Below, in pieces: positions 14,193 to 28,010 of a stretch of 39,808 nt of DNA. Source of the DNA: Desulfobacterales bacterium (lineage in GTDB: Bacteria > Desulfobacterota > Desulfobacteria > Desulfobacterales > JAIPEE01); NCBI GenBank assembly GCA_021737275.1, contig JAIPEE010000035.1, positions 1-39,808 on the forward strand. The letters run 5' to 3'. Made by a program: the position numbers and the translations under genes. The notes beneath the pieces were generated by a model, which did not search any database, had not been told where the DNA came from, and saw only the letters and a list, made by a program, of their open reading frames with translations. Within the stretch, counting starts at the first letter, position 1. Each line of letters opens with the position of its first letter.

Positions 14193-14243
14193 TCTCCAGT
14201 TGGAAATTTAAATACCACATTGTTCTCCAAAGTGAATGTTGCA

Positions 14244-14272
14244 TATATACATGATTATGGCAGGCAGGTCAA
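14244..14272 (-). promoter_or_regulatory. Sigma-70-type promoter of the GNAT operon
   Basis: On the minus strand TTGACC (14272-14267) and TATATA (14249-14244) are separated by exactly 17 bases. The predicted start near 14237 gives a leader of about 45 bases before the GNAT ATG. Confidence 0.65.
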
Positions 14273-14342
14273 AAACGATTGATCAATTTAATTGAGTTTT
14301 CTTGACAAAAATCAAACTTATGTATTTCCCGGTGTGAAATAG

Positions 14343-14382
14343 AAAAGAGGCATTTCAGAATTATCTCTGAAATGCCTCTTTT
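14343..14382 (-). terminator. Terminator of the cold-shock gene
   Basis: A perfect 17-bp stem, AAAAGAGGCATTTCAGA with TCTGAAATGCCTCTTTT and a 6-base loop. It lies about 20 bases past the csp stop and reads well as a terminator on the minus strand. Its A/T flanks would also work in the other direction. Confidence 0.85.
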
Positions 14383-14401
14383 AAAATTATAGTGTCGATG
14401 A

Positions 14402-14602
14402 TTATTTGACAGTTACATTTACTGCTGCGGGGCCTTTCTGGCCCTGTTCAATGTCAAATGTTACACGGTCACCTTCGTTGAGCGTTTTGAAACCTGAAGA
14501 GTTAATTCCTGAGTGATGAACAAATACATCCGGTCCGTCTTCCTGCTCAATAAACCCAAAACCCTTACTGCTACTGAACCATTTAACAATTCCTTCCGGC
14601 AT
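14402..14602 (-). CDS. CspA-family cold-shock protein
   Basis: 66 residues, a single cold-shock domain. RNP1 (KGFGFIEQ) and RNP2 (VFVHHSGI) are both intact, with the usual GIVKWF start and GPAAVNV end. It is an RNA/ssDNA chaperone in the cytosol. AAAGGAGG stands 8 bases before the ATG. A leader of about 120-130 bases, containing an AGCTTGC/GCAAGCT hairpin and a CGTAA/TTACG hairpin next to the SD, suggests the post-transcriptional control typical of csp mRNAs. Whether this copy is cold-induced cannot be told from sequence. Confidence 0.95.
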
Positions 14603-15011
14603 AACGATATCCTCCTTTACGTAAATGTTTACGGTCTCACACTTCGGGGTATCGCATTGTTAAATGGATGTTGCCCTCAGAACGAAACCAGCTTGCCAAC
14701 TGATGCAAGCTCAGTCAGTTATTAAGGTACTAAAATAATACGTGATTATAATTGAAGTCAACAAATTAATGTTTTTTTCATTAATTATAAGCAGAATCGT
14801 CAGCGTTTTAGACTTCATTCGGATGAACAGTAAACCGTAGCTCCGCTGAAGCTTAATTTTTTTTGTACTGAAGGGCATGAAAGAAAATTCCTGACCTATA
14901 GGCATGGAAGAAATTATTGTACAAAAAAGGTACTAAACTAATTTATAAAAATTTTGAGGTGTAAACAGAAAGAAGGATAGTGAACAAAAAATTCACATAA
15001 AGGAAACGGTT
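14603..15011. promoter_or_regulatory. csp leader and promoter, and upstream region of the FMN reductase
   Basis: On the minus strand TTGACT (14761-14756) is followed by TATTAT at 15 bases or TTATTT at 17, giving a csp leader of about 120-130 bases. The leader contains an inverted repeat 14690-14711 and one at 14620-14633. AAGGTACTAAA occurs twice (about 14724 and 14929), as if one binding site serves each divergent gene. No further gene is seen. Confidence 0.45.
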
Positions 15012-25426: not shown

Positions 25427-25455
25427 TTGACATGTATTTTCAGGCTTAATATAAT
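25427..25455 (+). promoter_or_regulatory. Perfect-consensus sigma-70 promoter
   Basis: TTGACA at 25427-25432 and TATAAT at 25450-25455 with the ideal 17-base spacer, an exact match to consensus. The start should be near 25462, leaving a leader of about 125 bases before the CNBD gene. Confidence 0.85.
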
Positions 25456-25586: not shown

Positions 25587-26021
25587 ATGTTTATTAAGGA
25601 ATATGATCTTTTTGAAGGTATCAGTGATGAAGTCAATGAGGCGCTCGTAGATGTTTTTGAAAGTAAGTCCTTCGGGGCGGGTGAGTTGGTTTTTAAAGCA
25701 GGAGATCCGGCAGATAGTTTTTATATTCTCAAAAGCGGTGCGGTCAATTTGTACATGGGCGGACAATCTGCCGTATCCGATATCGCCATAGAGCAGGGTG
25801 AAGCCTTTGGGTGGTCCAGTCTGGTAGGAAGAGATACCTACAGTGCAACAGTTGATTGTGCCGTACCGAGCAAGCTTTACAAAATTAAAAATGAAAGACT
25901 TGAAAAGGTTTTAAGGCAGTACCCGGTTGTTGGTATGAACTTTTACAGGCACCTTGCAAGTCTGATTGGTCAGCGTGTTGTCAGCAGCTATATGGCCATG
26001 TCCAAGTTATTGAACCAATAA
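25587..26021 (+). CDS. Stand-alone cyclic nucleotide-binding-domain (CRP-like sensor) protein
   Basis: 144 residues, one cNMP-binding beta-roll. YDLFEGIS opens it, FKAGDPADSFYILKSGAVNLYM is the classic turn, and GEAFGWSSLVGRDTYSATVDCAVPSKLYKI covers the phosphate-binding cassette. The cassette has GWSS-RDTYSATV in place of the GE-A-L-RSA of CRP, so cAMP binding is not assured. A C-terminal helix (ERLEKVLRQYPVVGMNFYRHLASLIGQRV) ends the chain, with no HTH or enzyme domain. It may act through a partner, or by ligand-dependent protein contact. It has a very strong SD (AAAGGAGG) and lies under a perfect promoter and a structured leader. Confidence 0.87.
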   Translation: MFIKEYDLFEGISDEVNEALVDVFESKSFGAGELVFKAGDPADSFYILKSGAVNLYMGGQSAVSDIAIEQGEAFGWSSLVGRDTYSATVDCAVPSKLYKIKNERLEKVLRQYPVVGMNFYRHLASLIGQRVVSSYMAMSKLLNQ

Positions 26022-26200
26022 TGAATAAAATTAGACATATATTAATGTAGTACTTTTTTCTTATACGAGGCGAGATTAAAATACGACATAAATCATACTT
26101 GTGGCGTATTCCAATTGCAGGGTTTTTTGTATATATTAAAAGTCAAACTGATATTGTCAATGTGGGGCGTAGAGGAAAGGGTAGCGGTACCATTTTTTAA

Positions 26201-26331
26201 AGATGTCTCTGAAGAGAGGGGGGAAGGAAGCTGAGGTTCAAGCCGGATTATTGTCAGACAGGGGGCTTACAAATGTAAGTTCTGGCAATATCGCGAAAAT
26301 ACAGAAGCTTGAAGTGGTTTTGGAGACATCT
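26201..26331 (+). ncRNA. Candidate structured non-coding RNA
   Basis: Nested complementarity on the plus strand: P1 AGATGTCTC/GAGACATCT (26201-26209 with 26323-26331), P2 TTCAAGC/GCTTGAA (26237-26243 with 26307-26313), P3 26246-26258 with 26281-26292 (12 pairs, one bulge, one G-U), and P4 CTTAC/GTAAG (26266-26270 with 26275-26279) with an AAAT tetraloop. Unpaired regions are purine-rich (GAGAGGGGGGAAGGAAG and AGGGGG). A textbook terminator follows within 8 bases. The rod shape recalls 6S RNA but is shorter, and the family is unknown. It could be an independent sRNA or the structured 3' end of the CNBD mRNA. Confidence 0.5.
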
Positions 26332-26338
26332 ATTTCTT

Positions 26339-26374
26339 AAAGGCAGCGTCTTTTTTATGACGCTGCCTTTTTTT
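26339..26374 (+). terminator. Strong Rho-independent terminator
   Basis: AAAGGCAGCGTC and GACGCTGCCTTT form a 12-bp stem with an 8-base loop, continuing into a seven-base T-run. It ends the CNBD/ncRNA transcript on the plus strand. Confidence 0.93.
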
Positions 26375-26488
26375 GTATGAATGAAGATATCTTTCATGGT
26401 TTACCGGCTGAAGATGTGGACCATTTCATTTAGTATTTATCGAAGCGGCGTTAGTTCAAGCCACAGATTTTTTCTAAACTCAGGATGT

Positions 26489-27169
26489 TTATACCGTATT
26501 TCCCCCAACCGGACAAACACGGATACACACGCCACAAATTTGCTGCCAGTCACTTAGCTGAAGCCTTTCGCCGACTTCGACATGCTGATCGTCGCATATT
26601 TTTTTATTAACGATTCTATTCCCACCAAGTGCTTTTGCCGGGCAGGCGCGGATACATTTATCGCACTCACCGCACAAATCAATATCGAGCGGTACGTCCG
26701 TATCCAGGATTGCTTCAGTAATTACCGAAACCAGTCGGACTTTTGCGCCAAATTGCGGGGTAAGTAAAAGATCGTTTTTCCCAAAAACGCCAATCCCTGA
26801 AAGCCATGCCGCATGTTTGTGGGAAAGATCCCCAAGGTTATTGATCATGTCATACGGGGGAGAGGCCGGGATTTGTAGTGCCCGAAACCCTTCATCCTGA
26901 ATCCTTCTGGCAACCCGGTAAGCAATGAAATCGAGTTCGCGATTTACAACCTGGTAGGCAATTGAATATTCCCGGCTGGGCGCGTTTTCAAGTGATGCAT
27001 CTGAATAACGCATGGCCATGGCAATAACGCTTGCCGCATTCCGCATGAGATCGGTGGGACGATGGCCTTCCGGTGCTTCAGAAAATGCGCTTGCAGAAGA
27101 TATACCAATAAGATCAGCGCCTAAATTTTTTGCAAAACTTTTTATTGTCAGTGTCAGAGATTCTTTCAT
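26489..27169 (-). CDS. QueG-like double [4Fe-4S] cluster protein, short form
   Basis: 226 residues. The N-terminal part (AKNLGADLIGISSASAF) is as in epoxyqueuosine reductase-type proteins. The middle (PYDMINNLGDLSHKHAAWLSGIGVFGKNDLLLTPQFGAKVRLVSVIT) is the typical segment before the cluster domain. The cysteines CGECDKCIRACP and ICGVCIRVCPVG bind two [4Fe-4S] clusters. It lacks the C-terminal repeats of full QueG (about 380), so it belongs to the short reductase-like relatives common in anaerobes, with possible corrinoid or flavin partners. GAGGAG stands 7 bases before the ATG. It is second in a pair with the gene at 27204-28010. Confidence 0.82.
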   Translation of the reverse strand: MKESLTLTIKSFAKNLGADLIGISSASAFSEAPEGHRPTDLMRNAASVIAMAMRYSDASLENAPSREYSIAYQVVNRELDFIAYRVARRIQDEGFRALQIPASPPYDMINNLGDLSHKHAAWLSGIGVFGKNDLLLTPQFGAKVRLVSVITEAILDTDVPLDIDLCGECDKCIRACPAKALGGNRIVNKKICDDQHVEVGERLQLSDWQQICGVCIRVCPVGGNTV

Positions 27170-27203
27170 GGCATTACTCCTCTTTGGTTAAGGTATTCGT
27201 AGT

Positions 27204-28010
27204 TCAACGATCAACCATGGTTAATGCTTCCGATGCACAACTGTTTCTGCACAGCCCGCAGCCAAAGCATTTTTTCGTATCAATGACCGCCTTATAATTT
27301 CCGGCGATCATTTTACTGCTGACCGCATTGAACTGGCATGCATCTTCACAGGCGCCACAACCGTTGCAGCGCGTTTCATCCACCCGGGCAATATTCTCCC
27401 CCCGGAACATGGTTTCCACGTCTATGGCCAATGTCCGCAGGCCCAGACAATCATCCTGTTGACAATTGCAGATAGCGCCGACAAAGGGCGTCATCATCGT
27501 CCAGATGGTATGAACCGCACCATGATTTTCGACCGCTTCCATTTGTTGAATCGCCTGTTCTTTTGTAACCGTTTCCAGACCTTCGGCAGAAGCCATGCCA
27601 AAATAACTCATATCAAGATCTTTATACCAGGAATCAGGTGAGTAGCTGACGCTGTAGCAGCAGCGGTTTTCTTTTTTTAAAGCGGCCCAGCGGCAGGCGC
27701 ATGGCATACGGACCACGGTAGCGGCTTTCCTAACAATTTCACGAATCTCTTCAATGGTCACCACCTGACCGAAATGTTCTTCTTTAGCCTGGGCCACCAT
27801 TGCATTTGTTAATCGGGCTGGAAGCTTTTTCTTTTTCTGATACAAAGTCTCCAGGCGACCAATGGTATTGACGCCACTTTCAATGGTAGATTTGAAAAAA
27901 TCTTTTATATAATCACGACGCTTAAGATCAGCCATCAGGTCTTTTGCATAATTATCAGCATTTTTAAACCAGACTTTGCCATCACCATGTTTTGTACAAA
28001 ATTCACACAT
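27204..28010 (-). CDS. Multi-cysteine 4Fe-4S dicluster protein
   Basis: 268 residues. The start is CEFC. The middle carries further cysteine groups (MPCACRW, NRCCYS, AICNCQQDDC). The C-terminus is a 2[4Fe-4S] ferredoxin domain with CNGCGACEDACQ and CFGCGLCRNSCA. The ferredoxin part is certain; the unusual CACR/CC/CNC groups of the middle suggest an extra metal site that I cannot assign. GAGG lies 7 bases before the ATG. It lies 34 bases upstream of the QueG-like gene on the same strand and is likely an electron-transfer partner of it. Confidence 0.83.
   Translation of the reverse strand: MCEFCTKHGDGKVWFKNADNYAKDLMADLKRRDYIKDFFKSTIESGVNTIGRLETLYQKKKKLPARLTNAMVAQAKEEHFGQVVTIEEIREIVRKAATVVRMPCACRWAALKKENRCCYSVSYSPDSWYKDLDMSYFGMASAEGLETVTKEQAIQQMEAVENHGAVHTIWTMMTPFVGAICNCQQDDCLGLRTLAIDVETMFRGENIARVDETRCNGCGACEDACQFNAVSSKMIAGNYKAVIDTKKCFGCGLCRNSCASEALTMVDR

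Follow-up and report, generated by a model that had tools for sequence, protein, structure and literature searches.

The window, by which we mean the whole stretch of 39,808 nucleotides from a Desulfobacterales genome that was analyzed, contains a gap of 467 bases (positions 26022 to 26488) behind a gene for a cyclic-nucleotide-binding protein. A preliminary description of this DNA had called the gap gene-free and had placed in it a structured RNA with its own terminator. Within 26022-26488, no open reading frame (ORF) of at least 60 amino acids was found, but a 45-codon ATG ORF, absent from the preliminary description, nearly coincides with the structure. The features found or predicted at the locus were the following:

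25587 to 26021, plus strand: upstream neighbor encoding a single-domain cyclic-nucleotide-binding protein, outside the predicted transcription unit (ORF, family, and terminator scans)
26078 to 26109, plus strand: regulatory element AAAATACGANNNANATCATRCTTNNNNNNTAT, partly palindromic, with outer half-sites AATACG ... CGTATT; probable activator site, with four exact copies in the organism's own genome
26132 to 26137, plus strand: probable -10 element (TATATT), 22 nt past the regulatory element, at a peak of the -10-like score over 16 sites
26145 to 26370, plus strand: predicted transcript of about 226 nt, its start inferred from the -10 element and its end from the terminator
26201 to 26331, plus strand: structured domain according to fold predictions, an unbranched rod with a 10-bp closing helix and a purine-rich internal loop (26211 to 26226)
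26203 to 26340, plus strand: 45-codon ATG ORF over the structured domain (ORF listing, codon score, and shuffles)
26339 to 26370, plus strand: intrinsic terminator of 12 pairs (7 G-C) with a loop of 8 and a T tail

Taken together, the regulatory element, the -10 element, and the terminator would delimit a transcription unit of about 226 nt, in which nothing was visible besides the structured segment and the 45-codon ORF. The terminator that had been proposed behind the segment was confirmed as a 12-bp intrinsic terminator, 7 bases past the closing helix. No terminator was listed between the cyclic-nucleotide-binding gene and the RNA; therefore, read-through from 25587-26021 is possible. A sigma-70 promoter agreeing with the consensus at 12 of 12 positions (TTGACA-17-TATAAT; 25427 to 25455) was observed 131 nt before that gene.

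Fold of the segment and known RNA families

The segment at 26201-26331, proposed to be a self-closing stretch of 131 bases on the plus strand, was borne out as such by minimum free energy (MFE) folding compared with shuffled sequences. The MFE was -62.7 kcal/mol with the terminator included (z of -5.2) and -41.2 for 26198-26334 without the terminator (z of -3.8), and in neither case was any of 200 shuffles equally stable. A larger run without the terminator gave a z of about -4.1, with the segment beating 2,000 of 2,000 dinucleotide shuffles. The reverse strand folded more weakly (-25.0; z of -2.7; 1 of 200 shuffles equally stable). The predicted helices, from the outermost to the innermost, have 10, 6+1, 7, 2, 3+9, and 6 pairs, and the four nested helices of 9, 7, 12, and 5 bp reported earlier are found again as those of 10, 7, 3+9, and 6 pairs. 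According to the pairing probabilities, the purine run GGGGGGAAGGAAG (26218 to 26230) is mostly unpaired, as had been stated (unpaired probability of 0.83 to 0.97 over 26218-26226 and of 0.25 to 0.48 over 26227-26230). A low z was shared with other stretches of the window: in a coarse scan with only 40 shuffles per stretch, which covered 1,150 fixed 137-nt stretches on both strands and the candidate itself, a z of at most -4.12 was reached by 12 of the 1,151, counting the candidate; the ends of the candidate were picked on structure in this comparison and those of the other stretches were not. The z of -6.1 given by the coarse scan for the candidate was inflated, as judged from the 2,000-shuffle run. 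Positions 14284 to 14489 and 27187 to 27323 also had a very low folding z in this rough scan, and no ORF of at least 90 amino acids was found in 14193-15011.

The segment had been thought to belong to no recognized family, and the whole window indeed gave no Rfam match at the gathering threshold; a permissive search of 26000-26500 returned nine weak matches, all below threshold. The resemblance to 6S RNA that had been noticed lies in a long rod with an internal loop. The RNA differs from 6S RNA in that RF00013 had no match in the window and the genome has its own 6S RNA elsewhere, on contig C30 (117.7 bits). An SRP RNA, which had also been considered, found no support either: RF00169 had no match in the window, and the small SRP RNA of the genome lies on contig C59 (54.2 bits).

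It had further been suggested that the purine-rich loops could bind a CsrA-type protein or bind or mimic Shine-Dalgarno-like or anti-Shine-Dalgarno sequences. A loop rich in G and A could only imitate Shine-Dalgarno sequences, since it is unable to pair with them. CsrA sponges of the CsrB/RsmZ type carry many GGA motifs, chiefly in hairpin loops. Although csrA is present in the genome and the purine run is unpaired, CsrA-type binding was weakened by the motif counts: the RNA has five GGA motifs compared with 6.5 expected from dinucleotide shuffles and one ANGGA compared with 2.0 expected. One of the five GGA motifs lies fully and another partly in the unpaired internal loop; none lies in a predicted hairpin loop. 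A CsrB/RsmZ-type sponge was rejected on account of the lack of GGA enrichment, of hairpin-loop GGA motifs, and of an Rfam match. As judged by eye, a FliW-like gene adjoins csrA, which suggests that CsrA is controlled by a protein. With the motif counts and the FliW-like gene against it, an RNA that titrates a protein or mimics a ribosomal partner, whether as a CsrA sponge or as a Shine-Dalgarno decoy, is highly unlikely.

A 32-bp element in front of the segment and of probable surface-protein genes

The regulatory element lies 91 nt before the structure. When the gap was searched against the genome, 26072-26109 was found to recur at three further places, and the four copies align without gaps. 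An own-genome scan with a 23-base pattern gave four matches with 0 mismatches, none with 1 or 2, and eight with 3. Since the pattern was built from the four copies, their 0 mismatches follow by construction, which does not apply to the empty range of 1 to 2 mismatches; the eight three-mismatch matches are at about the level of the reversed control (six). No second copy was found within the window at up to three mismatches. Behind each of the other three copies lies a gene whose secreted product ends in a PEP-CTERM-like tail such as VPVPGAVWLLGSGLLGMVGLRRK (VPVPG or VPISG ... RR in the three proteins), with 129, 110, and 301 nt between the element and the start codon. The VPLPA-CTERM domain scored 24.9 bits for one protein and 19.4 bits for another (cutoff of 25.35), and the third (VPISGSIWLFSSGLVGLLGFRRKI) had a weak match to the PepA family alone (20.8 of 80 bits); these putative PEP-CTERM-type proteins are weakly recognized as such. 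Two of the copies are on contig C44 and adjoin genes resembling the chain-length determinant and the tyrosine kinase of the XrtA system (266 and 199 bits, both under the curated cutoffs). An Rfam scan of the regulon loci found no family in common with the window gap. Because a rare element found otherwise before three probable surface-protein genes stands in front of it, the folded stretch is probably a real, hitherto undescribed small RNA.

We then searched 389 genomes of the order, the organism's own included, for the 32-base pattern. Up to three mismatches, it had 71 matches, compared with 25 for the reversed pattern. Outside the own genome, four exact and five one-mismatch copies were found in 4 of 388 genomes. 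The exact copies are in G147 (one) and G289 (three), and the one-mismatch copies are in G147, G213 (two), G289, and G186; G147, G213, and G289 belong to one genus. Two of these nine foreign copies, both in G213, seem to stem from the duplication of a single locus. On each of the G213 contigs C55 and C60, the element occurs as a divergent pair spaced by 77 nt (L106, 3047 to 3187); between the two contigs, the PilZ-side flanks are near-identical and the opposite flanks differ. Genes for HEAT-repeat proteins lie behind copies in G147 (by domain scan) and G289 (by likeness), a PAS histidine kinase gene lies behind a G289 copy, and PilZ protein genes lie behind the G213 copies (one by domain scan). 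The G186 copy is followed by a secreted protein truncated by the contig end, and no gene was visible after the copies in G147:C373, G289:C346, and G289:C487 (contig end). A three-mismatch copy in G314 precedes a PEP-CTERM-type protein. Across the genes behind it, the element lies 67 to 301 nt from the gene start.

For alignment, 14 regions were fetched, picked by strength and context from the 67 matches outside the own genome, and 21 sites (4 own and 17 others) were compared. The consensus was drawn from 18 of them, with the omission of L113 (inside a gene) and of both L107 sites (copies of L106, although the flank of the minus-strand L107 site differs); it reads AAAATACGAAAAAAATCATACTTTCNNCGTATTGA, with outer inverted half-sites AATACG and CGTATT. 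The plus-strand site of L115 and that of L117 were also omitted, as weak, from a scan for -10 elements over the remaining 16 sites. The mean -10 score peaked 22 to 24 nt past the element, at 7.2 to 7.5 compared with 4.1 to 6.6 elsewhere (a peak to which no significance figure is attached). According to this peak, the element would take up the -35 region together with sequence upstream of it, as activator sites can. A consensus scan found no sigma-70 promoter at the predicted place, either in the window or in G147.

A candidate for the regulator is found in G213, where a protein with VpsT-like receiver and LuxR-type helix-turn-helix domains is encoded next to the PilZ gene on contig C60. VpsT and CsgD are LuxR-type regulators with regulons. 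The resemblance lies in a LuxR-type regulator beside an element-bearing PilZ gene, with matrix genes as probable targets; the difference is that the candidate reached 91 of 250 bits against CsgD, below the cutoff, and is known here from the G213 sequence alone. A VpsT/CsgD-like LuxR protein may thus serve as a lead, and as nothing more, to the activator of the element. A c-di-GMP-I riboswitch (L106, 4526 to 4610; 87.3 bits) lies about 0.9 kb from an element-bearing PilZ gene in G213, which is in line with a control of the element regulon by c-di-GMP.

Other observations were made around the foreign copies. Group II intron matches (RF02001 and RF02005) occur near element loci (L071, 8062 to 8221; L105, 901 to 1134), the one in L105 with an ORF that resembles a reverse transcriptase by eye. 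Behind an exact copy in G289, about 520 nt (L109, 2740 to 3260) are without a clear gene, fold strongly in parts, and precede a gene whose product appears DksA/TraR-like by eye; this stretch is possibly another RNA or a long leader. The stretches behind the element in L109 and L111 had no likeness to the window RNA, and scans for terminators gave no result in L109, L105, or L072.

Search for relatives of the RNA

The RNA body had no DNA homologue in the 389 genomes of the order (an earlier set comprised 58), the own genome being included in both sets. A covariance model, built from the single sequence as two identical rows, found only itself under strict filters in the 389 genomes, and also in 32 sources. 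There was no other genome from the family of the source organism. The cyclic-nucleotide-binding gene had matches in 117 of the 389 genomes at an E value of 1e-15, its best relatives being about 40% identical, and six of its loci were in named genomes; at 30 loci of its relatives (35 to 42% identity), the one-sequence model found no such RNA. Because its body was not found again in the 389 genomes or in these 30 loci, the RNA is lineage-specific at the available resolution. Several DNA matches were rejected as homologues: those in G046 and G047 lie inside genes, that in G245 covers 26 bases of the RNA on the opposite strand, and L015 and L017, like L016 (G147), match at the terminator; of all these, L016 alone proved to be linked, through the element. 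Inspection covered the DNA-search matches other than L006, L007, and L019.

In G147, about 320 nt lacking any ORF of 80 amino acids lie between a one-mismatch element (C373:3830) and, at C373:4180-4223, CATCTATTTC with a GGCAG hairpin and a T run, a 3' end as in the window. This 3' end was found by the DNA search independently of the element, and its alignment scored 56, whereas the best of 200 mononucleotide shuffles scored 24. By a rough, post hoc estimate, the chance that a match in a 3-Mb genome lies no more than 400 nt downstream of either of two sites on its strand is about 1 in 10,000. GGCAG terminators recur in the order (L015, L017, L019, and L114), and the G147 likeness therefore rests on about 10 further bases. 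The G147 stretch had no terminator in the consensus scan, folded less markedly (z of -2.9; 2 of 100 shuffles), and had a body without likeness to that of the window RNA. Its neighbors differ from those in the window, with a tRNA-Sec gene upstream and a TetR-like gene (by eye) downstream; the selenocysteine tRNA gene (L105, 2483 to 2576) is about 250 nt upstream of the element. The arrangement that G147:C373 appears to share with the window is suggestive, and homology is not thereby proved.

Proposed nature of the RNA and its regulatory setting

The computed features are the fold, the terminator, and the shared element with its gene context. The reading that we favor, at a probability of about 0.5, is that of an undescribed orphan regulatory small RNA (sRNA) activated together with a regulon of exosortase-type surface proteins, for which we infer transcription, the identity of the activator, action in trans, and the target. 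An sRNA transcribed on its own (about 26145 to 26370) would have the segment as its 3' two thirds. An activator shared with exosortase/PEP-CTERM-type surface-protein genes would bind 26078-26109, where a -35 box would otherwise lie, and transcription would start about 36 nt downstream of the element. The product would be a rod with an exposed purine-rich loop, stabilized by the closing helix and the terminator. It would act in trans during the building of the extracellular matrix, most likely through pairing of the single-stranded G/A-rich loop with a pyrimidine-rich mRNA. By pairing preference, five PEP-CTERM-type mRNAs, three of them behind the element, ranked between 30 and 102 among 106 genes (about 3% of the genome); direct control of these five mRNAs is therefore unsupported. 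Also counting against the favored reading are the 45-codon ORF, the consensus scan without a sigma-70 promoter at the predicted place, and, as its weakest point, the failure to find the RNA body in other genomes of the order.

The same promoter element might instead drive a protein of 45 residues, from a short mRNA folded by chance or for regulation and with its start codon in the closing helix. The ATG, 94 nt past the element, is within the 67- to 301-nt range of the genes behind it, and the ORF, which begins within the closing helix and ends just beyond it, is the sole frame with a positive codon score (0.115 bits per codon; -0.19 to -0.40 for the other five). However, 40 stretches of window genes, each 45 codons long, scored 0.08 to 0.64, with 38 of them above the ORF (the same genes trained the score). 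The chance of such an ORF in shuffles was 6.5% with ATG and 19% with any start. There was no Shine-Dalgarno sequence at the usual distance, the AGAGGA at 26171-26176 ending 26 nt before the ATG. The ORF had no Pfam family, no phage match, and one subthreshold NCBIfam match, and no signal peptide was recognized by eye, unlike in the other three element-linked products of the own genome. We consider the ORF noncoding rather than coding by about two to one or better, and a short mRNA possible but rather unlikely.

That the segment is a folded 3' untranslated region of the cyclic-nucleotide-binding gene (25587 to 26021), acting as a stabilizer and perhaps processed, with the element there by accident, is improbable. 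This gene has the 12-of-12 sigma-70 promoter in front of it and shares its strand with the segment, with no terminator listed in between, but the gap contains the element in the correct orientation, with a -10 element at the usual distance and no further copy in the window at up to three mismatches, and the 30 loci of the gene's relatives (35 to 42% identity) were without such an RNA by the one-sequence model. The element could also have driven a PEP-CTERM-type gene in the past, the rest being debris, since AGAGGAAAGGG (26171 to 26181) is like the Shine-Dalgarno region AGGGGAGGAAAGAGC of two C44 genes. Yet no start codon follows AGAGGAAAGGG at the usual distance, the gap ORFs of at least 20 amino acids are without a PEP-CTERM-like tail as judged by eye, and a fold with a z of -4.1 and an intact terminator are unexpected in debris, all of which makes a decayed gene very unlikely.

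PEP-CTERM/exosortase systems occur widely among environmental bacteria; to our knowledge, little is known about their control beyond the sigma-54/PrsR site. Among the papers listed in searches of the open-license PMC literature, none tied an sRNA to this control. The known PEP-CTERM site is described as being of the sigma-54 type in the relevant passages of PMC1569441 and PMC9850573. It consists of 17 nt with TTTACA at the end and is placed about 63 nt upstream of a -24(GG)/-12(GC) promoter, and PMC1569441 itself states that further motifs are still to be found. The window element resembles this site in being a conserved DNA element before PEP-CTERM genes with long noncoding leaders, as these are portrayed there (PMC1569441), and differs from it in being 32 bp long and 22 to 24 nt before a sigma-70-like -10 element. 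A sigma-54 promoter adjoining the element, and with it the identity of the element as a PrsR/sigma-54 site, was rejected, because the GG and GC next to the element, which would stand for -24 and -12, are 12 and not 10 bases apart by eye. An sRNA of a sulfate reducer with a conserved regulator site in front is Dv_sRNA2 of Desulfovibrio vulgaris, likened here by its description in PMC3333781 as a target of the response regulator DVU0679. It differs from the window RNA in lying downstream of its own regulator gene and, in the portion of PMC3333781 that deals with it, is not linked to PEP-CTERM genes; as given there, one response regulator of D. vulgaris controls an sRNA and a different one controls PEP-CTERM genes.

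The window RNA is probably a new sRNA, ordinary in kind and of interest for its regulatory setting. A more far-reaching proposal is that of a new RNA class in the exosortase/PEP-CTERM regulon of the order. A c-di-GMP-linked VpsT/CsgD-like activator would act through an undescribed 32-bp operator to drive surface proteins, PilZ proteins, and one structured RNA that would adjust matrix production posttranscriptionally, and the gene-less unit of G147 would be a fast-diverging relative; we regard this as unlikely. The regulon behind the 32-bp operator apparently does not belong to the sigma-54 type. As an RNA under the same rare operator as surface-protein genes, the window RNA offers a direct entry point to their control, and the operator, with its nine exact or one-mismatch foreign copies, makes the RNA, the regulon, and the regulator testable. 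The operator is the most valuable outcome of this analysis.
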